Assembly: GCA_016490735.1 (NCBI GenBank)
Contig: JAEMWC010000268.1
Coordinates: 626,501 to 690,500 of the forward strand
Direction: 5' to 3'
DNA: 64,000 bases
Source of the DNA: Pachyseris speciosa
Taxonomy: Eukaryota; Cnidaria; Anthozoa; Scleractinia; Pachyseridae
A model generated the notes under the pieces. The model did not search any database and was not told where the DNA came from. It saw only the letters and a list, made by a program, of their open reading frames with translations. Below, in pieces: positions 17,619-56,124 of this stretch. A program made the position numbers and the translations under genes. The number at the start of each line of letters is the position of its first letter. Positions within the stretch are counted from its first letter, which is position 1.

Positions 17619-18791
17619 CTATGGACAGTTGCCCCATGCACAGATACCATAATTTAAATAAGGAGAAATAAGTGTATGACATAAATTTAAAAGAAGATGC
17701 CGTGGAATGTAATGCCTCATTTTAGCAATTATTCCAACCGATCTACTAATTTTGTGACAGATAAAGTCAATATGATGCTTCCATGATAGTTCAGAATCAA
17801 TCATTATGCCCAAATATTTAACAAAGTCCTTCATCTCTAGAGTTACTCGAGTATTTAAAGTTGGATTAGAAATCTTAATTTGAGGAATGAAAGGTATTTT
17901 TTTTTGGCACGGACGAAAAATTACATAATTAGACTTTTTGACGTTGAGCGTTAGTTTGTTAGCATTAAGCCATGCACTTACTTTCTCAAGTTCATTATTG
18001 ACAGTTAGCTCAAGAGTACGTAAGTTGCTATTTGGATAAGTTAGACTTGTATCATCTGCGAATAGATGAAAAGTAAATTCCTTGGAAGATTTATGGATGT
18101 CATTAATATATAACAAAAATAACAAGGGTCCAAGTACAGAGCCTTGAGGCACTCCACATACGATCGTTTCATTTTCAGATATGCATTTCTCTATTTCAAT
18201 CGACTGTCGGCGATCCGAAAGATATGATCTAAACCAAGAATTTATAACTCCTCTTATTCCATAGTGTTCAAGTTTCGTCAAAAGAATCTCATGGTTAACG
18301 GTATCAAATGCTTTCTTAAGATCTAAAAATATTTCACAAGAGTACTTTCTATTGTCCATATTAGAATGTATGGAGTTCACAATATCAAGAATCGCATGCT
18401 GGGTGCTATGTTTATTGCGAAAGCCATATTGTAAATCATAAAGAATATCATTCTTGTCTATAAACTTTATCAGCCTACGATATAAGATTTTCTCAAATAA
18501 ACGATTATAGATTGATAACAAAGAAATTGGCCGATAGTTTTCAGGTAACGTCTCGTCTTCACCCTTATGCACTGGAATTACTTTTGTATATTTAAGTTTT
18601 GCAGGGTAAACCCCGGTTAGTACAGACTGGTTAAAAATTTTGGTTAACGATATGGATATGACTGATTTAGCAAGTTTTGACAGTTTAACAGGGGTAGAAT
18701 AAAGCCCCAGGGCTTTATTGTATGGCAACAAGGTAATTTCTGTTTCAATTTCTTGCGGTACAATTGGATCAAAATAAAAAATGTTCCGCAA
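17619..18791 (-). pseudogene. LINE reverse transcriptase domain
   Basis: 390-codon frame covering most RT blocks: KVIPVHKGE, NYRPISLLSIYNRLFEK, YGFRNKHSTQHAI, FLDLKKAFDTVNHEILL, GVPQGSVLGPLLFLLYIND, FADDTSL (catalytic Asp pair) and WLNANKLTLNVKKSNY. Residues of the catalytic centre are kept, but the frame is cut off from its endonuclease and C-terminal parts. Product once made cDNA on nicked target DNA. Confidence 0.85.
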
Positions 18792-18807
18792 AGGTGGATC
18801 GAGATAA

Positions 18808-19370
18808 TCAGAAATTAGTGTAAACTTCAGGAATATCGGCTGTAAGTTTCTGCCCTATTGACGAGAAGTATTTGTTGAGTGTGTTACCAATCGTTTTAGA
18901 ATCATCTGATAAAACGCTATGCTCGTTAGAACGAATGAAGTTAATTCTTTTTGATTTCTTCCTTTTCTTCGTATCTCCTAATATTTCGTTAATACCTTTC
19001 CATGTCGATCGTGTATTTTTTATGTTAGAGTCAAAAAACCTTTGATAGTGACGTTGTTTGCTCAATCGAATAAGGGTTGTTAACTTATTTCTTTACATTT
19101 TATATTTCGGCCAGTTTGATTCAAAGAACAATTTATTCTTCACCTTTATAGATTTCCTTAGTCCAGCAGTTAACCAAGGTTTAGTTAGCATTTTTAGTTT
19201 TCTCACTGAAACATCTGAGCGGTGCATGTTTATTAACTACACGATTTATGGTTTTATAAAAGTGAGAGAACGACTTATTTACGTCGCAATTACCAGAAAC
19301 CTCTTCCCAATTTATTGCACTTAAATCATTCATGAATTCATTAGCATTAAAGTTGGAATAATCCCTAAAT
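18808..19370 (-). pseudogene. LINE endonuclease-RT linker remnants
   Basis: A frame at 19,065-18,808 reads RFFDSNIKNTRSTWKGINEI. Upstream to about 19,370, broken frames read NWEEVSGNCDVNKSFSHFY and NKHAPLRCFSEKTK, the usual region after an APE endonuclease. Several frameshifts. Confidence 0.6.
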
Positions 19371-20481: not shown

Positions 20482-20581
20482 TTTATTTTACAACATAAGA
20501 CACTGGTACGTTTTGAGTTTTATGCCGGCATGTGCGGAGCGCCCGCCGACATGACCGACATGAGAGACTTGAACAGCCAAA

Positions 20582-22001
20582 AAAAATCCTCAGAAGTGTG
20601 TTGATCACCACGTGTACGTCTTTCGTCAGGAAACCCAAAAATCCCGAGAAAAAGTTACCGAGTACTACACACGTCTTCAGTTACTGGCACGCAAATGTGA
20701 ATTCACTAATACCGAGTTGGAGATAAAGCGGCAAATAATTCAAAGCACTTCTTCGGTTCGTCTCAGGCGTAAAGCCATCGAACAGAACCTCAACCTAGAA
20801 AAGCTGCTCAAGGCCGCTAGTGCCATGGAAATCGCTGACGGGCAAACCAGCGAGATTGAGAAACAACAGTCACACGCAGTTGGTTTTGGTCGAAAGAGAA
20901 CAAGTGACAATCAACAGAAGGAGAGTTCCAGTGGTCAACCAAAGTCTGGTATTCACCACGTGAAATGTGGTTTGTGTGGTGGAAGGTTTCCACATCAAGG
21001 TGACTGTCCTGCACAAGGTAAACAATGCCTTAACTGTGGCAAAATGAATCACTTCTCTAAAGTTTGTCGCAGTAAACCCAGCAATCGCTCAAAATCCACC
21101 CGTCCAAGAAAGCCATCGAAAGGTAGCCACCGAGCCAGATCTGTTGACATTGAAGACCCCTCTGGTAGTGAAAAGTCAGCCTTACTGAGTGCTGATGGTA
21201 ACAACAGTGACGAGTATACCTTTCATATCGGCATGCACAAACCTCAAACCGCCAAACCTATCTTTCAAGTCAAGATTATCGACACACCCATCCACTTAAT
21301 GGCAGATTCTGGAGCAACAGTGAACATCCTGAGCAAAAGGGACTTTGGTAGCTTGAAACCAAGACCGCACCTGACAAATACAAATGTCAAAGTGTATCCA
21401 TACAAGTCTGCTGAACCGCTCAATCTGTGCGGCAAACTCCGAGTCAACATTGCTAGTGATCATTGCTCATCAGAAGAAACATTCTATGTAGCAGAGGGCT
21501 CATCAGGGTCTATACTCAGCTGGATGACATCACAGAAATTAAATCTCATCAAAGCTGTGAGCACGGTTGAACAACCTCCTGTAGATCTACCACCTGGTGC
21601 CCCAGATTTCCCCAAGGACTTTCCTAGTCTAACTAATGGAATGGGTGAATACAAAGGTGAACCAGTACGTATACATGTTGACGAATCTGTCAAACCAGTG
21701 GCACAGCCGCACCATTGCATACCATTTTACGTCCGGAAACAAGTGGAAGAGATACTGAGGCAACTTGAGAATGAAGGCATCATTGAACGTGCCGAGGGCC
21801 CAACCCCATGGGTTTCGCCAATTGTTGTTGTACCCAAACCCCAGAAGCCAAATGAAATCAGAATCTGTGTCGACATGAGGTCCCTAAACAAAGCCATCAT
21901 CAGAGAAAGGCACATCATCCCCACCATTGATGATGTAGTGTCTGACGTCTTAAATGGCTGCAAAGTGTTTAGCAAGATTGATCTAAGCTAAGGGTACCAT
22001 C
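20582..22001 (+). pseudogene. gag end, zinc knuckles, protease and RT start of LTR element
   Basis: Open from the LINE junction to a TAA at 21,989-21,991. Contains VYVFRQETQKSREKV, two CCHC-type knuckles (CGLCGGRFPHQGDC and CLNCGKMNHFSKVC), the aspartic protease motif LMADSGATVN, and RT blocks PWVSPIVVVPKP, ICVDMRSLNKAI and KVFSKIDLS. The stop replaces the residue between KIDLS and GYHQIPL and kills the RT. The first in-frame GTG (20,612) is not a start. Confidence 0.85.
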
Positions 22002-22276
22002 AAATTCCACTCCACTCTGACTCAAGACCACTGAAAACATTCTCCACACACGTCGGGTTGTTCCGTTACAAGCGTCTTAATTTTGGTCTGTCATGTGCTG
22101 CAGAAGTTTTCCAGAGGAAAGTGAGTGACTCGATCCGTGGTATTCCCTGTGTCAAGAACATCAGTGATGACATCTACGTCGGTGGCACAGACAGTGACAC
22201 CCATGACCAACATCTGAAGCAAGTATTCCGCCAGCTACAGGAGAATGGCCAGACAATCAACTTACCTAAATGTTAG
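21992..22276 (+). pseudogene. RT catalytic segment of LTR element
   Basis: Same frame continues as GYHQIPL, RLNFGLSCAAEVFQ and VKNISDDIYVGG, the catalytic Asp pair, and stops at TAG 22,274-22,276. A one-base loss right after it changes frame. Confidence 0.8.
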
Positions 22277-23712
22277 TTCCCACCATGCTTTTCTTTGGCC
22301 ATGTGTTCTCTGAAAAGGTCATGCCACCTGATCCGAGAAAAGTTGAAGCTCTTCAAAGCGTTGCCCCACCAACCAACGTATCAGAAGTACGAAGCCTCCT
22401 TAGCTCTGCTGCATTCTGTTCAAGGTTCATCAAGGACTTTGCAATTATTACTAGACCTCTTCGGCAGCTGACCTGTGATGGAGTGAGTTGGCAATGGACC
22501 CAAGAGGAGCAGTCATCATTTGAACGCCTAAAAGAAGCATTGTCAGTCAAGACGACTCTTGGATACTTTGACCCCAATAAACCTACTTCCATCCTCGTTG
22601 ATAGTGGCCCCGTTGGTTTAGGTGCTGTCCTAACCCAAGAAGATGAATCGAGCAAAGAAGTGACACCGCCGCAATATGCCAGTTGTCCGCTTACCCCCAC
22701 ACAAGCAAGATATCCTCAGATTGATCGTGAAGCTTTGTCGATTTACTGGGCAATCAAACGCTTTCACCTGTTTGTTTATGGCAAGGAGTTCAAGGTCATC
22801 ACCGACCAGACCAGACCCCTAGTGGCTTTGTTCAACAACCCGTCGTCCAAGCCCTCCACCAGGATTGAACGCTGGTTGATTGAGCTGCAGCAATATCGCT
22901 TCACTGTAGAGTATCACCCAGGTGCCTCAAACCCAGCTGACTACGCTTCAAGACACGCTGTTGGAGATCCAGAATCCCACAACTATGAAGTAGAATCTGA
23001 GGAACACATTTCTTTCATCGCTAGGAATGCAGTACCGAAAGCCGTCACATTGTCTGAGATACAGACTGCAGCTGCAAAGGATCCAATGCTTCAAGCTGTT
23101 ATGTCTGCGGTCAAGTCTAACTGCTGGCATAAAGCCCCACCTGACGCGTCACTATCTGAGCTGTCACGCTATGCACAAGTGAAAGATCAACTAACTTGTA
23201 CAGACACCGTCCTGCTGAAATCAGAACGCCTTTTGGTACCTGCTGTATTGAAAGAGCGAATCGTTGACATTGCTCACGAAGGCCATCTAGGCATAGTAAA
23301 GACGAAAGCTCTCCTGCGAGAGAAGGTGTGGTTTCCATGCATGGACAAGATGGTGGAAATGAAGATTAAGACCTGCTTACCGTGTCAAGTTGTTACCCCA
23401 ATGTACACTAGAGAACCACTTCAAATGTCTGTACTACCTGACAACCCTTTTGATGAAGTGAGCATTGATTTTGCACACGTGGAGGGTGAGACCCTGCTTT
23501 TAGTGGTTGATGACTACTCGAGATCCCCGTTCGTGAAACCGGTGTCATCTACGTCTGCTTGTGCTTCCATACCCAAGCTAGACCAGCTGTTTGCTACATT
23601 TGGAACACCCCGAGTAGTCAAGACAGATAATGGCCAACCATTCAGTGGAGAAGAATTTGCTAAGTTTGCTCGTGTGCTTGGCTTTAGACACCACAAAGTC
23701 ACTCCGCTCTGA
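22270..23712 (+). pseudogene. RT thumb, RNase H and integrase of LTR element
   Basis: In the next frame: FFGHVFS, then the RNase H core (ILVDSGPVGLGAVL, DREALSIYWAIKRF, ITDQTRPLVAL, NPADYASRH), the integrase HHCC finger (HEGHLG ... CLPC) and integrase core VSIDFAH and KTDNGQPFSGEEF. A TGA (23,710-23,712) stands where a Trp codon is expected before the GEVERF block. Confidence 0.85.
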
Positions 23713-24482
23713 CCCAGGGCTACTGGCGAGGTGGAGAGATTTGTAAAAACGCTAAAAAAACCATCAAGGCTGCTAAAACAGAAGGGAGAAATTGGAGAAA
23801 GGAGCTGCAAGCCATTTTGCGTAATTACCGCACCACGCCCCATGCAACCACTGGTGTTGCACATGCTGTGTTGTTGTTAAAACGCCCTGTTCGCAACAAA
23901 CTTCCACAAGCCAACCATGTAGATCCTGTGTCTGAGATCATCCACGAACATGACTCCTCACAGAAGTCCAAGATCAAGCTTCGTGCTGACAACAAGGCCT
24001 ACGTGAGACCCTGCACTATCTGCCATGGTGAAACTGTGCCTGTAAAGAGGCTATTTTCTGTATCAAAAGGAGGAACTGTTTATGATCCCACTCCCCTGAC
24101 AGTTGTGGATAAGAATGGCAGTACGATCACGGCTAAAAATGGAAAACACACAGTTACAAGAAATTCATCATTCTTCAAGAGTCTGAGCCATCCAGCTATC
24201 ACCCATGACAGTGATGAGTCTCGAAACAGTGCTTTTGGCTCTGTAGCTGACCAAGAGTGATTGCAAGAGCTTCCAGCTATAGCTCCAAGTGTGAATGCTC
24301 CTGATCCGGCGCCGCCAAAACTCTTGGACCAAGCTGATCTGCCAAGTTCAAGCAGTCCTGTTCCTGTTCCTGTTCCTGTTCCTATTCCAGAGAATCAAAC
24401 TCGTGCCTCTCAGCCTGATAGTCAGCCACCTTTGCGGAGATCCACCCGAAAGCGAACTCCTCGACAAATTCTCGACTTATAG
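23713..24482 (+). pseudogene. Integrase C-terminal part of LTR element
   Basis: Continues with GEVERF (catalytic Glu), a one-base loss in an A run near 23,755, then NYRTTPHATTGVAH, a chromo/SH3-like tail and an in-frame TGA at 24,258. The last part is Pro-rich (SPVPVPVPVP) and ends RRSTRKRTPRQILDL at TAG 24,480-24,482. Confidence 0.75.
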
Positions 24483-27709: not shown

Positions 27710-27825
27710 TTATCCTGCGAAATCGCGCGGAATATCGCCTGATACTTAGCCGAAGAAGCCGTAGGCTGAGTTGGCTAAGATCAGGCGATATTTTTACAAG
27801 ATCGATCAAGATAATTGTTTCATTA
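27710..27825. repeat. Foldback element, duplication copy 2
   Basis: Arms AATATCGCCTGATACTTAGC and GCTAAGATCAGGCGATATT. Paralogue of 7,785-7,905, here better paired. Confidence 0.6.
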
Positions 27826-28008
27826 TTCAACAAAATGATCACAGAGTACAATTTTCAGCGTTTATTGCAAAAAAAAAAAAAAAGCTCGAAAGGCCGCCAC
27901 TTTTCTCCACAACACACAAACTTAAGTATTTTGCAGGATATGTGTTAATAATGCGTAACATCTTATTCTTGTCTCTGTGGCTTCTGTTTTCTGTTTTCGT
28001 TTTTATAG

Positions 28009-28305
28009 AGCCGAGCGCTCCTCCAGCTTATGTCAGTGGACACAACACTAGCTCTACCAGTATTCTGGTTCAATGGGGAGAAGTTCCCGCCCATGGTCAA
28101 AAAGGAATCATACTAAGTTACACAGTTACCTACAAGGCGTTACCAAATGGTATTGCATTAAGCAAAAGCGTCAATACCCCAGCAACTAAAGTCACGCTGA
28201 CAAATCTCAATAAATACACTAACTACAGTATCAAAGTGTTTGCCTCGACTGTAAAGGGAGGTGGAAATGTGAGCGCACCTATCACTGTCATCACAGATCA
28301 AGACA
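28009..28305 (+). CDS. FN3 exon 9 (group A)
   Basis: A 297-nt phase 1-1 exon (TTATAG acceptor, GTAAGT at 28,306). Reads EPSAPPAYVSGHNTSS, VQWGEVPAHGQKG, ALSKSVNTPATKV, NLNKYTNYSIKVFAST. Shares the AHGQ turn with exon 4. Confidence 0.85.
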
Positions 28306-28380
28306 GTAAGTACGCCGTGCTTGCCTCGATGTCTTGTGATTGGGTTTGATGTTTCTCCTATTTGCGTTTTTATATATCAG

Positions 28381-36543: not shown

Positions 36544-37969
36544 TGTACGGGTCCGCAAATGATCCCAGGACCGCAAATGATCCCGGACCGCAAATGATCC
36601 CCAAAATGGACCGCAAATGATCCCGGACCGCAAATGATCCCCATATTGGACCGCAAATGATCCCGAGCAAAAAATAAGGAATGGCATGGATTGATATAAA
36701 AATGACACACAAAAAACACGTTTTTCATTTTATGAGAATTATTCTATAGTTATTTTTGTTTTTTGTTTTTGTTTTTTTCGTTTTTAGTGGAAAATTTGTG
36801 ATCTTGCGTGACGTTGTCTGTTTGTTGATTTCAGGACGCCAGCTGCATAGTACAGTAATTGATTTTGTAAAAGATACTTGTTGCGATCGTGGACTGCGAG
36901 TTTCGCTTCATGTCTTCTGATTATTGTGTTGTACATCCCCGGACGTTCAAGAACATGCTTACTCAGATTTAATTTCTGTCGGGTATATGATCAACGCTTC
37001 GGTGCACGTGCCCGATTTCAGTGAAAATCCAGCATGTATAAATTAGCCTGGAAACAAACAGGCTCCGCAGTGGGAAAAAGAAGGATCGTGGCGAAAAAAT
37101 TCGGCGAGCGAAGCGAGCCGCCAGTCCCCCGCTCGGCTCGCTTTGTTCGCCGATTTTTTTTTTTTTGTTTTGGCCCACGTTCCTTCTTTTCGCTCTTTAA
37201 CCACACTGCGGAGCCTGGTACCAGGCTAGTATAATTCAATTGTATAATCACAAATACAACGGAGAATTAAAATACGCACATACCCGTAAAGGAATAACTG
37301 AAAAAATCCGCAGTTGATTTCGTTATCTTTTGAAATAAAAGTCTTTTGTTCACTGAGCACTCTCATTTAAAATTGTACCCAGAATACTAGAAGTGTTTCT
37401 TTCTCACATTCATGGGATCAGCCGACTGGCCTGTGGCAGGCGAGAAACGCGGTGATGTGGTTGAAATCGGAGCAGGGGTCAAAGATCATCCGAAACTTGT
37501 CACCGTCGTGTGAGCTGTGACTCCCACGCGTTCGGAAAATATGGCTAAACTGTCTTGTTCGTACTTCATTGGTATCATTTGTGAACGTTCTTGGAGTTAC
37601 TAAAGATAAGAACAAACACAAAGATCTCTAAAGACAGAAGGAAAAACGACATAGGTTTGGATCCTGGTGTGATAACACTGATTGACTGCTTCACATCAGT
37701 TGCACAAATTGTGTGACCACGTATACCTTTTTAAAATTAATCAGATGATGATAGTTGTGAGCCATGATTCAAGGCTTTGATTAAAATAATCGCAATTCAT
37801 GCCAATTCCCTATCCATACCATTTCACCATCCATGCCATTCCTTATTTTTTGTTCGGGATCATTTGCGGTCCAACATGGTGCAATACGGGGATCATTTGC
37901 GGTCCGGGATCATTTGCGGTCCAATTTGGGGATCATTTGCGGTCCTGGGATCATTTGCGGAACCGTACA
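36544..37969. mobile_element. Non-autonomous DNA transposon with subterminal repeats
   Basis: Ends TGTACGG ... CCGTACA, each followed inward by repeats of GGACCGCAAATGATCCC: six at the left (to about 36,665) and five at the right (from about 37,857), in opposite orientation. The inverted repeats extend to GGAATGGCATGGAT. AATC flanks both ends (36,540-36,543 and 37,970-37,973), and the paralogous intron near 2,088 has a single AATC at the same place, proving the borders. Length 1,426 bp, no transposase. A 4-bp duplication is compatible with Sola or Chapaev-type elements, but the family is not established. Confidence 0.85.
37044..37228. mobile_element. Foldback MITE nested in the TIR element
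   Basis: TAGCCTGG...CAGGCTCCGCAGTG at the left and CACTGCGGAGCCTG...CCAGGCTA at the right, with a GC-rich palindromic middle (GGCGAGCGAAGCGAGCC). It lies wholly inside 36,544-37,969, so it is younger or travelled with it. Confidence 0.65.
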
Positions 37970-38060
37970 AATCACCCCATGTGTATCTGGTGTACCTGTA
38001 GATTGTATTGTTATAGTTATTATTGCATCTCAGGTTTCATGTCTCTCTGTTTCATAACAG

Positions 38061-38357
38061 AACCAAATGCTCCTCCAGTTAACGTGCATGGACTCAACAC
38101 TAGCTCCACCAGTATTTTGGTTTATTGGGGCGAAGTTCCAGCTGATGATCAAAATGGCATCATACTGAGTTACACAGTTACCTACAGAGCCTTACCTAAT
38201 GGTGGTAAACAAACCAAGAATATTACTGCTCCAACAACTCAAGCTAATCTGACTGGTCTGAATCGATACACCAACTATAACATCACAGTGTTTGCCTCGA
38301 CTGTAAAGGGAGGTGGAAATGTGAGCGCACCAATCACTGTCATCACAGATGAAGATG
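38061..38357 (+). CDS. FN3 exon 13 (group A among group B)
   Basis: A 297-nt phase 1-1 exon (AACAG acceptor, donor GTACGT at 38,358). Reads EPNAPPVNVHGLNTSSTS, ILVYWGEVPADDQ, NRYTNYNITVFAST. Its upstream intron matches 2,055-2,160, so it is the only intact copy of the exon that survives as relics at 2,160 and 24,955. Confidence 0.85.
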
Positions 38358-38947
38358 GTACGTACACTAAGCTAGTGTCATTTTAACACAAAAGTGAAAA
38401 CAAAAAAAAAACACATTATTTTATGGCTATCAAACGGGGGTGTTCTTCATGTAAAACTTAAGTTAATCTCTTCTGAGAACACGTTCTTGTTAATATTGAC
38501 GTTTTCAATGCGTATGCTCAAACGATTAATGTAGTTTTAAAATTTGCTGTTGGTAACTCACACACGGATCAAAAGCTTGCTCAATTTTATGATCAACAAA
38601 TTGTAACCGGCGGATAGACTTGTCAGCGCCCTGATTAACTGTTGTGTCGTTTTGCAAGTATACGTTTTTAACTTTAACTTTTATTGAAAGTCAATGAAAC
38701 ATTGCTCAACATGGTTGAACATTTGTTGTTCAACCAATATTGAACGGCATTTAAACCCGTTGTCCCTGTAATGAAATTCTATGTTCTGTGTTTTCTATTT
38801 CGATCAACGTGACATTGTTTGAGGCCTTATGTCCACCCAGGCATAGAGAGGATGTCTGTTTGCAACTGTGTTAAACATTATTGAGAGAAATACAGCTCTA
38901 TTTTAATTGTATTCCTTTAGTAACTAATAATCGCCTTTTATTGGCAG

Positions 38948-48425: not shown

Positions 48426-48739
48426 AAGTACCCATATGGTACTTGTATTGGCTACAATAAGCCAATGAGAAAGGATTAATTCGCGCTACTTTCCAATTTA
48501 TGTTTGAAGTTATCAGAGGTTAGGGACGGACCATTAAAAAAAACCTAAGAGGGGAAGGGAGGGGGATTTTCGATGCATGAATTTGAAGCCCACTTGTCTA
48601 CAGGATTTTATTTCCTCTGCATGGACTTTTTTAGGTACCACTGCCTGCAATATTTTTTTAAACAATTTCCCTTGCCGTAAGATAAGAGATAACCTGAAAT
48701 GAATGTGGCGAATGGTTCTTCAAACAATAGGTGTTTCGC

Positions 48740-49440
48740 AGAATTTCCGTCAAATTTCATGGCTTTCGCCGTCTCGAGTTTTTGGCAACGTTGTCTCGGA
48801 TTATCGATTTCTTTTGCAAGGCTAAGAAAGAGGGACCTAGCTACGCCAATCGTTTTGTAGGTTACGTCGAGTACCAATTCTTTAATCAGTACAACGGTCC
48901 TAAACCTGAACTCTACGGTCGCTACATTGACGACTGCATCGTCTCAATTTCATCTAGCAAGGAGGAAATCAATCAATTCATAACTTCCGTTAATTCATTT
49001 CATCCCGCTCTACTATATACCTGGGAGATTTCGGAAACTTCGCTGGCTTTTCTAGATATCAAAGTTTCAATCGGTGGCAACGGTTTATGTACCAGCTGCA
49101 GTGTGCACTACAAACCCACCGATTCTCACAGTTATTTGTTGTATTCATTTTGACACCAATCTCATGTTAAAAACGCCATTCCCTATACTCAATTTCTTAG
49201 ACTGCGACGACTATGTAGTGATGACTCTAATTTTTCCAACAAATCAGAAGAAGTATGAAAGTTCCGTTGGAGAAACGCGGCTATCCTGATTCTGTGGTTC
49301 AATAGGGCCATTACTGCGCCAAGCAATTTGATCAACAGTCAGCACTACAGACGTCACAAAAGGAAAAGAATGACAGAATTTCATTCACCCTCACATTTGA
49401 CCCGCACAATAACCCAGTTAAAGCCATCATTCTTAATATA
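48740..49440 (+). pseudogene. Penelope-like element RT fragment
   Basis: An open frame to 49,153 reads RFVGYVEYQFFNQYNGPKPE, LYGRYIDDCIVS (catalytic Asp pair), TSLAFLDIKVS, VHYKPTDSHSYLLYS. It then continues with frameshifts as HVKNAIP, FLRLRRLCSDDSNFSNKSEE and similar. These are the last RT blocks of Penelope-like elements, before the linker and GIY-YIG nuclease, which are missing. Cut off at 49,434 by another repeat. Confidence 0.8.
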
Positions 49441-49550: not shown

Positions 49551-50269
49551 GCATTCTGCTTGTCATGTCACACATCTGACCTCACTCAAGCTACAGATGC
49601 GATGCTGTAGAAAATAGTATGAAAAGGTGAAGTGAGCCAGTGGCACAACGGATTTGGAACCCCCCCCCCCCCCCCCCCCTCCCGGGCTTAGAGCAATACC
49701 TAAGGACAGGTCTGTTTCCCCGTTTAACTGTAGGCTACTTAGTTATGGTTTAGGGCCACTAGATATTGGTGGATAAGCCTAGTGATTGCTCCTTTGAATC
49801 AGTATCACATCAGTTATGTAGTGATTCAGAGCATCACTTCACAATGAATGCAATTTCAATTATCCACAGCCTCCCATGAGACAATCGAAAATCAGAAATT
49901 GTGTATCCTCTGGATATATGATTGCCTCAATAAAAATTTAATGAAAGAAAGATACATGGAAATCAATAAAAATACTTAGATGATATGAATTAAGACCAAG
50001 ATATTTCTCTTGATCAGTTACTTCTTGACCTTAATATCACAAAAGAAAAAACTGCTTGCTAGCATTAAGCTCATCAATCAATGCATCTACAGTGTTTTCA
50101 AAAAGAAATCCGGTTGCTCCTCTGGCTGGCCAATTGCAAGACCAAACAACTTGATAACAAAATAGTGGGAATTTGTTTGATACCACTATCAAGGTAATTA
50201 ACAATGTAGTATGAGGATTTATGGTAGTGATTCATCAAAGCAAATTGCTTGAAATCAGTGTTAGCCATC
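49551..50269. other. No gene seen; poly-C run
   Basis: A C run at about 49,661-49,679. No other feature is supported up to the transposon. Confidence 0.4.
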
Positions 50270-50273
50270 TTCA

Positions 50274-50298
50274 AGGAGAACTGAAGTCAAAAATCAAG
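50274..50298 (+). repeat. Left terminal inverted repeat of Kolobok element
   Basis: 25 bp, no mismatch to the right end. Confidence 0.9.
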
Positions 50299-50557
50299 GC
50301 GATTTCTATCGGGGACCAAAGATGTAAAAAGTGCGATTTTTACATTTTTTCCTGTCTATCGCCATACATTTGCGAGAATTTTTAGTTTGAAGTTGCTACT
50401 TTCTCGCTCTTTTGGGTTCATCAGTGCGGGCGCCAGTTTTCACTCAGCGGTTTGTAGCGAGAGCCTATGACGTAGCTTATGGGGAAACGACGTAAACAAC
50501 CTTGTGATGTTACTGTGAAGTACAATCATCTCTTTATTTGTTGACTTCACTGCGAGT

Positions 50558-50786
50558 ATGAGCGGGGTAGAACCTTTTCAATTCGAGCCAACGTATCCCC
50601 CTGGGGAAGAACCAGACACGGACGACTTTGAAGATGTGGAAGAAGATGAAAATTACAGACGTGCAATTGCAAGGATCGGCAACACAAACTGGTGTTCTTG
50701 CGGCGTCTGCGTAGCAATGCCGACAAACGACGAATGCTACTGCTGTCAAGAGCTCGAGGACCTCAATCCGAAATTCGATGAAACAG
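50558..50786 (+). CDS. P2X7 ballast-domain-like protein, exon 1
   Basis: Start ATG 50,558 (MSGVEPFQFEP), donor GTCAGT at 50,787, phase 1. Residues 14-32 are acidic. From residue 45 comes a Cys-rich block, WCSCGVCVAMPTNDECYCCQ (Cys 46, 48, 51, 60, 62, 63). In vertebrate P2X7 receptors the matching block (RCC.DCLPCELPESHRCLEELCC style) opens the intracellular C-terminal ballast and binds zinc. Here there is no channel domain, transmembrane segment or signal peptide, so the product should be soluble. It is carried by a DNA transposon. Whether it acts with the transposase is unknown. Confidence 0.8.
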
Positions 50787-51000
50787 GTCAGTGAAGAAAA
50801 TGTTTGTTTGATACTCAATTTATCTTTCTTTCGAAAGGTTAATGCATAGCCGTCGCCGTAGGTCGCACAAAGCGAAATGTTATTTCGAAATTTAGTAGCG
50901 GTGGTGGCAATAATTTTCAAATACAGAATGAACCTTAGTCAATACTCCCATGTAAAAGAAGCTTATAATTGAAACAAATTTCTTGTTTGTCTATTGATAG

Positions 51001-51127
51001 GCGTCATGTGCATCACAAACCATCATAAATTCCGTACAGTTTGCCTCGACACGGGTTTGTTGAGGACAGCACTCGTGGCGATTCACAATGCTCGCCTCAA
51101 CCCAGTTCCGGAGCCCATTACAAGCAG
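51001..51127 (+). CDS. P2X7 ballast-domain-like protein, exon 2
   Basis: Acceptor TTGATAG, donor GTAAAG (51,128), entering in phase 1 and leaving in phase 2. Residues 77-118: GVMCITNHHKFRTVCLDTGL, LRTALVAIHNARLNPVPE. This equals the middle of the P2X7 ballast, with Cys 80 and Cys 91 and a helical stretch. Confidence 0.8.
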
Positions 51128-51231
51128 GTAAAGCATAGCTGTTTAGCTGCATGTATTTTGATCTCTTTTCTCCACTCATTTGATAAATTATCCCTTTGAC
51201 AATGTTCCCATAACCTGCTTTTGAATTTCAG

Positions 51232-51400
51232 AACTTGGCGATTGGCTGCGTATCGGCAATTTACGTGGTGGGTACACGGAATACTCGGAAAAGGAAGACG
51301 GAGAGTGATTCCTGCATGTGTCGTTCGCGCCGTAAGGAAAGAATTTCCTGAGGAAAGTGGACAGTACTCGGGGTTTCAAGAAGCAGATATTAATTTGTAA
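51232..51400 (+). CDS. P2X7 ballast-domain-like protein, exon 3
   Basis: Acceptor TTTCAG, ends TAA 51,398-51,400. Joined exons total 525 nt (174 aa) without a stop. Residues 119-174 include RTWRLAAYRQFTWWVHG, PACVVRAVRKEFPEESG and QYSGF. This matches the most conserved end of the P2X7 ballast (AYRCY.TW, CCRW.IRKEFP...GQYSGF). Agreement across all three exons makes the domain assignment firm; function is inferred only. Confidence 0.85.
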
Positions 51401-51697
51401 TTCCATCAACTTGGACTATTTATTATTGTACAAAAATAACTAATATGCTTTGTTTACATTTAGCATACAACATTATCATAATTAAATAATTTATGGTTTG
51501 TACATATAAAGATGAAATACAGAATTTATAGTTTATTCACCATTACATACATTTTTTTCTAAAATCCCTAACACTTAGTGAAAAAGTTGACTCGTTATTA
51601 TATTAAATACCAAAATGAAAACGTCTTAAGATAGAAATAATTGATCTGTAAAAAAAACATACAACTCTTATCCGACTTTCAAGTTTGTCAGGTCATT

Positions 51698-53674
51698 TTA
51701 ATTATTAGCAAACCTTGATGTGTGTTTGGCAATAACTTCAGCTCTTAGTGGCCTTGGTTTGCTAGCAATATTTTTGGGAATGTCTGCTGGGGTTTGAAGT
51801 GTTGCTTTCCGCTCACGGGTTTTTTGTTTTTTTCTTTCAATTATAGCATCTAACATTGGCTTAAGATGATCCCTGCTTGTTTTTTCCATTGTTGGCTTAG
51901 CTATCCACTCTTTTGTGTTTTTTGGGAGGACAATTTTATACTGGAGTTCCCCTTGATTTTCACCCCTGGTTGCAGTAGCCTGTTGCCTTCCAGTGTTTGC
52001 ATTGTGGTCTAGTGCTGTCAGCTGGGTACGTGCAACCATACCCTTGTGGGAAAAATGCTGGCGTTTTGGCAAATACTTAGTTTGGACACTATGGTAAACT
52101 TCTAAGTTCCCAGTGTGGCAGCACAGTGAAAGCTGCTTGATGTCCTTCAAAAGATTTTTGTCAAATACGACCTCCTTCAAGGCCTCATGGGCTGGGGATC
52201 CAGGTCTCAGCCACCTTTTGGTTCTAGCCACATTACGAGGGATAGGTGGGTGAGCACATTCATGATATACATCTGCCGAGTCCCAAGAGTGGATATTAGC
52301 TTTATGATGTACAATGGAGATCCACTTTTCTCTCAGCAGCTCTGGGTTTCCCTCACAGGTTTCTGCACACCACCAAAGATGGTTTGAAATTGATTTTATC
52401 CAGGGTGAGAGCTCCTCACATTCTTTCTTTTTTGCTTTTTCATTCAATTTTTTGGTAATACTTTTGGAAAGGTGCCATACATCAAATTGGTGATCTATGT
52501 CAGGGTAATTTTTCTTCATGTCAGATCGAATTCCAACATGCCGATCAGTTGCTACAACTTTTATGTTTCCCCCCTTAGCCCTTATATTGTCCATACACCG
52601 CTTAAAGCCCTGCCTTTCCATGGCATTGCTGCTACTAACCTCACTCACTTGAACTATTTGAAAATCAACTATTTTATCAGTTTCTTGATCAATCATGGTG
52701 TATGTGCCATACTTTGCATTGTGCCCAGGGCTATCACAACGACCATCCCCTGACAGCCACAAATATTTGGAATTTAATTCCCCAAAAACAGCCTCTTGCT
52801 CTTGCGCCCAAAAATCATTAATTACTGGGAATAAATATTTGTCCTGAATGCTATAAAATGTTTTCTCACTAAAAAAATTTAAGTTAAGGATCTCGGCTAG
52901 CAAGGCTACCTTAGTGTATGAAGAGCCACTGAGTAAAATAGATGATGACATTAGCAAGTTTCCAGCAGCCATCCCTTCAAGCATAGGCTGGCTTTTCCAT
53001 AATTTTGTATGTCTATCTATGCAAGTTAGTGTCACAAATAATTGAGTTCCTTGGGTGGAGTGGTGCTTTTTAGTGACAACTGCACCACATTCAGGGCATC
53101 GTTGGAAAAGTTCAAACAGTTCACTTTTAAAAACAAGGAATTTTGTGTCATCCTGAGGGTTAGCAGACTTGCAGCTTTCCTCTTCCTCATTTTCTGATGT
53201 CTCGGATTCATCTGACCAATTTTCTTTGGATGAAGAGGGCTGGTACTCAGGATCCTTGTGAGGGGACACCACGGGAGACACAGTTTCAGCAATGTTTTCA
53301 TCAATGTCATCTGCTTCAGTAACCTTAATATTTGAATCACTTGACTCAAATTGTGTACTGGCATCATGAATTTCTGGTTTAGGAGTCTGGGTATCTGAGG
53401 ATTCCTTCATTAACTTGTCTCCATATGTATTGACCTGGCATCCAAAATCAGTACTCTCCTTTGCTAAGTTGACTTGAATCTCTTGTGACTGCACTGACAC
53501 ATAACATTCAAATGGCAAAACTGGTAACTCATCTGATGTAGAAGTACTTGGTTGATGCCCATCAGTGTCATCAGGTAATGAGGGAATGGATAATGCACTT
53601 GACGTTGATGTACTTGGTTGATGTTTATCAGTCTCAGGTAATGCTGGATTTGTTTCAGTGATGGAGACAATGTA
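51698..53674 (-). CDS. Kolobok-type transposase, exon 2 (DDE domain)
   Basis: Acceptor TTTGCAG just before 53,674, phase 0, stop TAA at 51,700-51,698, 658 codons, no interruption. The TTG at 53,680 lies in the intron and is not a start. The first about 180 residues are Ser/Thr/acid-rich and probably disordered. Then follow a C2-C/H zinc site (CPECG ... CIDRH), a conserved helical part, and the RNase H-like catalytic core: SGDGRCDSPGHNAKYGTYT (first Asp), VVATDRHVGI (second Asp), FDVWHLSKSI. Conserved C-terminal blocks are RTKRWLRPGSPAHEAL, CCHTGNLEVYHS and FSHKGMVARTQL. It should excise and insert the element at TTAA. The catalytic Glu was not pinned down. A close alternative is a domesticated THAP gene, but the surrounding TIRs speak for a transposon. 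Confidence 0.85.
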   Translation of the reverse strand, partial: YIVSITETNPALPETDKHQPSTSTSSALSIPSLPDDTDGHQPSTSTSDELPVLPFECYVSVQSQEIQVNLAKESTDFGCQVNTYGDKLMKESSDTQTPKPEIHDASTQFESSDSNIKVTEADDIDENIAETVSPVVSPHKDPEYQPSSSKENWSDESETSENEEEESCKSANPQDDTKFLVFKSELFELFQRCPECGAVVTKKHHSTQGTQLFVTLTCIDRHTKLWKSQPMLEGMAAGNLLMSSSILLSGSSYTKVALLAEILNLNFFSEKTFYSIQDKYLFPVINDFWAQEQEAVFGELNSKYLWLSGDGRCDSPGHNAKYGTYTMIDQETDKIVDFQIVQVSEVSSSNAMERQGFKRCMDNIRAKGGNIKVVATDRHVGIRSDMKKNYPDIDHQFDVWHLSKSITKKLNEKAKKKECEELSPWIKSISNHLWWCAETCEGNPELLREKWISIVHHKANIHSWDSADVYHECAHPPIPRNVARTKRWLRPGSPAHEALKEVVFDKNLLKDIKQLSLCCHTGNLEVYHSVQTKYLPKRQHFSHKGMVARTQLTALDHNANTGRQQATATRGENQGELQYKIVLPKNTKEWIAKPTMEKTSRDHLKPMLDAIIERKKQKTRERKATLQTPADIPKNIASKPRPLRAEVIAKHTSRFANN

Positions 53675-54258
53675 CTGCAAACCAAAAACAGCAGGTCTTG
53701 TTGCAAGTTTTATAGCAAGGGAATTACATGTCTTAAAAAGCCTTCATATCAAGAAAAACTTGTATGATAGCAGCAAGTAGAGCCATCGTGAAACTTTTAG
53801 TTTAATAAAATGACTGTCAAGTGGATCAGGTTTGCACAGATACATAGCTGAAGAAGATGATCTGCTTGTAAGGCTGGTTGTTACAAACTTAACCCACTAA
53901 GAGGACCCCCAAAAAATAGCAACACAGGCACTTGAGAGAGAAGGGTGTTTGAAAGTCAAAACTTTCCGTGATGCCTATAAAAAATTGACAAGCTGATATG
54001 ATTACTGGTGAGCTTGATCTTGTTAACAAGTATATTCTCCTATCGTTTTCAGTATCCATAATATTAATGCTTGCCAATCGCTCATCAACTTCACTTGGAT
54101 TTCCCTGCCCTTTTTTGTGGAGTCAGCATGTTTTGATACGAGCAGCAATTTCGATTGTATTTGCCATTTTTTGCAACAATATTAGACTGTTGGGTGACAG
54201 GCAAGCACCGTGCGATTTTGAACGATTTTTATAAAATAGCATTCTTAATTTAGCCTAC

Positions 54259-54591
54259 CTCTTTCTTGGCTTTTTCTTCTAGACGTCTCTCAGATGATAA
54301 TCTAGGCTTTTTAGGCGGGGGAAGATGAGAAAATATCGAAGGTACGGCATCTGTCTTTAAATCGTTTTTGCCTTTTCGGCCAGTGAGTTCTGCTCTGAAG
54401 TCACGCTTGTAATCGTCGGGGGTAAAATGCGCCGAACACAATCTGGAGTTTTTGGTCAAGACAAGATCAGCACGAGAAATTTTCGCAAGCCACTGGTCCC
54501 GAATAGCCACATCAGTTGGAAACTTGTGGTAGGAGACAGTCTTGTTATATCTTGAGTAGTTGTAACAGTCAAAGGCTGCGCAGTAAACCAT
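54259..54591 (-). CDS. Kolobok-type transposase, exon 1 (THAP domain)
   Basis: Start ATG 54,591 (MVYCAAFDC), donor GTAGGC after 54,259, phase 0, 111 codons. C2CH THAP zinc finger: Cys4, Cys9, Trp34, Cys52, His55 (LCSAHF), with the AVPSIF box at residues 82-87 followed by a basic stretch. THAP fingers bind DNA, here presumably the element's termini. A 584-nt intron separates it from the DDE exon. Joined protein is 769 aa in one frame. Confidence 0.85.
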
Positions 54592-55396
54592 CGTGATGAC
54601 GAACGGAAAGTTCTGCAGAAGTTCTTTGAGGCAACCTCGAAGTATTTCACATAATTCGACTAAGCTCCTTTATTTATACGAGATTCCTTGCGTAAGACCG
54701 GAACGTGCACAACGTAAATTAATAGAACAAACGCATAACCCAAAACAGCGTCTTAAATTTCATTTTATTTTACATCACAAGCTTAAGCTTTACGTGTACA
54801 TTTAGGATCAAAATTCAAAGGATACAACTGCACACAATTCCTTCCCGAAAAAAAAAACCGTAAGAGAGGAGTCTAATTTGTAGAGTTAAAGTCTACATAA
54901 GAGCTAAATGTTCAGTCAAAAGGACGAACAGGAGCTTTGAAACATTACGACATTGCTAAAATGTTTTGCAATCATTGACAAGACGACGGAAACCATCATC
55001 ATTCGTTGACCACGGACGTACGCAGTGCGTGCAGTACGTACGTACTTAGATCTGGCAAGATAAAATAAACTTACACAATCGTAGAAAGATTTGAATACTA
55101 TCTTTCAGCTGTGTGTCCACTCTGACTCGTATTTTGTTTCTTCAAAGCAATGTCGCCCCACATCAGCACGTGAAGTTCTACTGCCATGTTTTTCCGGTCT
55201 ATATTTTCTTCCCTATAACATACGTCATAAACTTCGTAAAGAACCGCTGACCAGGCCGATCTGAGCCGCCGTCAGACGGCAAAGTTACAGTGGAAAACTT
55301 GTCGTTCTTTTGCCTCGTGGTTTTTTTTAAGAAGGTATAAATGGTTAAATAGTGTTTTACTTGCCATAATTAATTAAATCAAGCTTAAAAAAATTA
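54592..55396. other. Right subterminal region of Kolobok element
   Basis: Non-coding. Contains the probable promoter and 5' leader of the transposase gene. No clear TATA box was identified. Confidence 0.4.
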
Positions 55397-55421
55397 CTTG
55401 ATTTTTGACTTCAGTTCTCCT
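55397..55421 (-). repeat. Right terminal inverted repeat of Kolobok element
   Basis: Exact complement of 50,274-50,298, followed by TTAA at 55,422-55,425. Confidence 0.9.
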
Positions 55422-55425
55422 TTAA

Positions 55426-56124
55426 CTTGTTTTTCTATTTTGCAAGAAAGGTAAGGACTAGTCTCACATTTCTCCATGTACATTTGAAATTGCACAACAT
55501 ACTTCATCAAACATCAGAAATCCCATTAAACATTAGTGCCAAATGTCATCCAAACATCCCACAAGATTGGTGTGAGCAGCTACTAATAAAATTAATTGAA
55601 AGACTGCATGCAGGAGAAGGAAGTCCAAAGGATGTGTACATTGATGAGAAAGAGCTTAATTTAGGTTTAATTTTAAGTTTAAGTTTAATAATTCTTTGTC
55701 ATGCGAATACAAGTAAGTTGATACAAAACAATAAAAGTGCATGACTGGAGAGTAATCGGGAAAAATTAAATTCCCATATATAGAATATTATCCAATATTA
55801 AAATGCTACTGAGGCGAAATTTTGAGTTTTTCTTGTTTGTCACTTTTCGTGATCTTTGAAGGCTAATAATTATGCATGCCAAATTTGATTTCGAAATTCC
55901 CAATGGAAGTCCGCTTTTTTGATGCATGTTTTTCGCGAACGAGCGTCCGCCATTACCCAAGCCAAATATTGTCCGAGCAAGACCAAAGGCTTGAAGCCAG
56001 CACTCCGTGACGTCATCTTATCATCTGAACTAAAGTGCTCTGAGAGGAAGTGACAGCTCCATACGTGGAAAAAAGGATATTCCTGTTTATATGCTCATCG
56101 TTTGTAAACCCTTGCGAGGCAGAT
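55426..56124. other. No identified gene
   Basis: A 105-codon plus frame (55,427-55,744) includes NIPQDWCEQLLIKLIERLHA, which looks protein-like, but I do not recognise it. 55,940-56,030 is related to the complement of 62,335-62,430 (both with TCCGTGACGTCATCT and CGTCCGCCATTAC). Confidence 0.35.

Follow-up and report, generated by a model that had tools for sequence, protein, structure and literature searches.

Kolobok DNA transposons of the Kol0 lineage, which includes Kolobok-1_XT as its representative, encode two proteins, a DDE transposase and KolX (Kojima & Bao 2022, PMC9587614). According to the available text of that paper, KolX resembles residues 476-595 of P2X7, which adopt the ballast fold and contain seven conserved cysteines, and Kol0 hosts include cnidarians. 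The same text derives P2X7 from a P2X4-like gene that became fused to KolX and proposes that Nanor is a domesticated KolX. Free ballast proteins had been found earlier across animals, corals included (Rump et al. 2020, PMC7016195); that article reports that in these non-vertebrate proteins only R546 and R578 are kept among the guanosine diphosphate (GDP) contacts, and its main text, as available, nowhere uses the word "transposon". We compared these systems with an element of 5,148 base pairs (bp) in a 64,000-nucleotide stretch of the stony coral Pachyseris speciosa (contig JAEMWC010000268.1, positions 626,501 to 690,500), referred to in its entirety as the window.

The element is very probably a Kol0-type Kolobok DNA transposon, apparently autonomous, in which a THAP-DDE transposase is accompanied by a free-standing KolX with the P2X7 ballast fold and the seven-cysteine set; we propose that KolX is a trans-acting helper. 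The anatomy of the element, the homology and predicted fold of KolX, its presence in the two-ended copies examined and its constraint as a protein between two families are shown here. The features are listed below; splicing of both genes was predicted by trying combinations of sites within set ranges.

50274..55421, no strand assigned: whole element, Kolobok type, 5,148 bp
50274..50298, plus strand: left terminal inverted repeat (TIR), 25 bp, with flank TTCA at 50270-50273
50558..50786, plus strand: KolX exon 1, with the start codon and C46, C48, C51, C62 and C63 of the zinc-type set (predicted splice sites)
51001..51127, plus strand: KolX exon 2, with C80 of the zinc-type set (predicted splice sites)
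51232..51400, plus strand: KolX exon 3, with TWRLAAYR, C148, RKEFP and GQYSGF, and the stop codon at 51398-51400
51698..53674, minus strand: transposase exon 2, DDE core, stop included, with D421, D488, DxxH at 509-512 and E636 assigned by eye
54259..54591, minus strand: transposase exon 1, THAP domain, residues 1-111 (predicted splice sites)
55397..55421, minus strand: right TIR, 25 bp, a perfect match to the left TIR, with flank TTAA at 55422-55425

A repeat search returned 50270-50298 and 55397-55425 as inverted ends of 29 nucleotides with 97% complementarity. These ends contain the perfect 25-bp TIRs that the initial annotation had reported, and the TTCA and TTAA flanks it had named lie to the left and right of the element, differing by one base. 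The termini, AGGAG..CTCCT, follow the superfamily rule of 5′-RR and YY-3′ given in the available text of PMC9587614. Together with TTAA targets, a THAP domain and a Mutator-like DDE core, they bear out the Kolobok type assigned earlier. We also considered membership in KolobokP, a group marked by long terminal direct repeats (~450 or 660 bp) together with a His-Me nuclease, and rejected it: the longest direct repeat found in 49800-55900 was 46 nucleotides, and the second gene encodes P2RX7_C.

On the minus strand, four splice combinations exceeded 700 amino acids (aa), namely 750, 755, 769 and 788. The 769-aa model, which joins 54591-54259 to 53674-51698, reproduces the spliced THAP-DDE transposase described initially. 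Its product matched THAP (PF05485, E=1.1e-17), a domain usual in the Kolobok superfamily (PMC6004289, as available), and the minus-strand product matched a Mutator-like transposase profile at 9.9e-8, above the Pfam cut-off. By eye, DVWH at 509-512 falls between D488 and E636; C/DxxH is a transposase signature in the accessible part of PMC9587614.

On the plus strand, a single splice combination reached at least 160 aa. It gave a convergent gene of three exons with GT-AG introns and a product of 174 aa, the same gene that the initial annotation had drawn. The profile search that annotation had suggested bore out the proposed ballast homology: P2RX7_C (PF20478) matched at E=3.8e-20 and was the sole Pfam match at E≤1, so that no P2X channel joined to the ballast was seen in this product at that threshold. 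Against PDB sequences, KolX had six matches at E≤1; four were P2X7 chains (best 1.2e-10, P2X7 residues 474-592), and the other two were an engineered channel at chance level (E 0.35 and 0.42). The ballast fold was predicted for a KolX relative, P0001, rather than for the window protein itself. The nearest named relatives are in the stony corals Montipora, Pocillopora and Porites. Window KolX thus shares with the vertebrate P2X7 ballast (PF20478) the predicted fold, the seven-cysteine set and the AYR, RKEFP and GQYSGF motifs; unlike vertebrate P2X7, it is a free-standing three-exon protein without a channel. Although the splicing of KolX is a prediction, these matches leave next to no room for the idea that the gene model is an artefact and its P2X7 similarity due to chance. 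Separately, one predicted protein of 304 aa (P0016) fuses a piece of reverse transcriptase with a KolX domain and may be a gene-model artefact.

Every feature tested agrees with the Kol0 description: a DDE transposase next to KolX, P2X7 ballast similarity (the fold being modelled on the relative), seven cysteines, TTAA target, 5′-RR..YY-3′ ends and cnidarian occurrence (compared with PMC9587614 as available). The family of the window element is not named in the available Kol0 text, and may be in its supplements or in Repbase. A convergent pair of transposase and partner genes with later use in vertebrates is also known from RAG-like transposons (RAG1L and RAG2L; available text of PMC7204232), whose proteins differ from those of the window element, so that the resemblance is in layout only.

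To count copies, a 24-base TIR pattern with at most two mismatches was searched in the 984-Mb genome. It gave 22 matches and the reversed control gave 0; these counts are lower bounds, and copies lacking a close end, like any KolX gene located outside these elements, escape the census. The matches were grouped into 17 insertions, nine of family 1 and eight of family 2. Both ends were in hand for 11 (seven and four, respectively), and all 11 carried KolX exons and at least part of the transposase in convergent layout; in L023 the transposase was reduced to residues 1-43. Other TIR copies lacking the ballast gene would have spoken against the initial claim that this gene is mobile with the element, and within the TIR search that claim held. 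The two-ended family-1 insertions were the window element, L009, L010, L011, L012+L013, L014 and L015. L012+L013 was read as one interrupted element over 27 kb, ~7.7 kb of whose middle was left out of the comparison; L014 has an internal deletion and is without the THAP exon, and L015 carries an insertion. Among the six one-ended insertions, KolX exons were found in L016 only. No KolX match was present in the stretch compared for L018, L021, L022, L024 and L025; because only the transposase end aligns there, and L022 and L024 contain runs of N (as do L017 and L020), we regard these insertions as uninformative rather than supportive.

Flanks of the two-ended insertions were TTAA/TTAA in nine cases, TTCA/TTCA in one (L019) and TTCA/TTAA in the window, in keeping with the TTAA preference of Kolobok elements. 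The target need not be TTAA, because the family-2 copy L019 (2835-8233) has TTCA on both sides; the left flank of the window element is likewise TTCA. The two families share the outermost TIR bases and the same convergent layout, with about 66-73% identity over alignable DNA blocks; within family 2, the left and right ends match each other over only the first ~13 bases.

These comparisons bear on the suggestion in the initial annotation that the ballast domain is cargo. In vertebrates the same fold belongs to a host receptor (PDB matches; PMC7016195 as available), which would suit a host gene recently captured by the window element alone. However, the gene has the same layout in two such divergent families, and Kol0 elements from diverse animals are known to have KolX as their second gene (PMC9587614, available text), making recent capture very improbable. 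The initial reading therefore stood as to Kolobok type, ballast homology, joint mobility of gene and element and a plausible path toward P2X7, and failed as to captured cargo, KolX being the standard second gene of the Kol0 lineage. The pairing of transposase and KolX is real but largely known, having been described in 2022, as was the direction from KolX to P2X7.

KolX of the family-2 copy L017 was open (175 aa), with exons 1 and 2 of the same lengths as in the window and 70.5% identity over 173 aligned residues. Codon positions 1/2/3 differed at 42/32/111 of 173 codons in KolX and at 172/120/368 of 655 in transposase exon 2 between families, indicating that both genes were held as proteins between the families.

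Several observations weigh against our interpretation. Both frames were open, in the predicted gene models, in the window element alone among the nine family-1 insertions; frame-breaking changes were present in both genes of L011 and L015, in the transposase of L012 and L014, and in the transposase and the incomplete KolX exon 1 of L016. Compared with close copies, KolX was near-neutral (dN 0.0236 / dS 0.0324 for L009; 0.0236 / 0.0229 for L010, where dN and dS are nonsynonymous and synonymous divergence), and the transposase showed some constraint (0.0189 / 0.0356 and 0.0167 / 0.0378, respectively), which is the pattern expected after insertion. L009 and L010 share a KolX stop at codon 34, upstream of the cysteine set, so that KolX may be partly dispensable. 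Moreover, the Kol0 placement is drawn from KolX rather than from a transposase tree, and the helper role of KolX is a proposal.

Across the element, L009 and L010 share 99.42% identity. Because their alignment stops at or at most one base from the flanking TTAA on both sides, they are separate insertions. The transposase is open in both in the 769-aa model, the stop counted for L009 being the natural end. In the simplest reading, an element already without its own KolX would have moved, with another copy supplying KolX or with KolX not needed every time; alternatively, the stop may have arisen by parallel mutation, or codon 34 may be bypassed in the product. As to the possible second transposition factor of the initial annotation, a strict requirement for KolX in cis is unlikely, because two copies with an open transposase share the broken gene. 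The same pair also suits the possibility, less likely but worth serious attention, that KolX regulates transposition or meets a host response, copies losing KolX yet moving wherever transposase is made. The constraint on KolX between families and its occurrence in all two-ended copies examined point instead to long-term importance, although these data fit trans-acting help equally well. In the mechanism we favor, the transposase would bind the element ends through its THAP domain and insert mainly into TTAA. KolX may be stabilised by zinc and act in trans, helping the transposition complex or its regulation; copies in the cell would then have KolX in common, and the moving copy would not have to provide its own.

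Elsewhere in the window, retroelement remains lie at 20573-24260 (plus strand), where the Pfam scan left out 23688-24260. The frame at 22270-23712 (plus) has RNase H and integrase domains (PF17919, PF17917, PF17921, PF00665); 20573-21991 (plus) appears Gag/protease-like by eye, with no Pfam match. A reverse transcriptase frame at 17619-18854 (minus; PF00078, 4.5e-36) appears non-LTR-like (LTR, long terminal repeat) by eye. A 140-aa frame at 48731-49153 (plus), ~1.1 kb left of the element, had no Pfam match at 1e-3 and resembles the end of a reverse transcriptase by eye. Similar frames at 27765-28349 and 37790-38386 (both plus) may be exons of an adhesion-type gene of the host; the Pfam scan covered the first, which has a fibronectin type III domain (PF00041, 8.4e-14).

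The evolutionary link between KolX and P2X7 is already published. The P2X7 ballast binds zinc and GTP (guanosine triphosphate) or GDP, and to our knowledge its role is unsettled. With both of its frames open, a transposon copy such as this one offers an opportunity to study the function of the ancestral protein. More speculatively, KolX may act in trans as a zinc subunit of the transposase machinery and serve even KolX-less copies; the nucleotide-binding ballast of P2X7 would in that case be a transposition helper that was domesticated, and the activity it first had could still be assayed in such elements.
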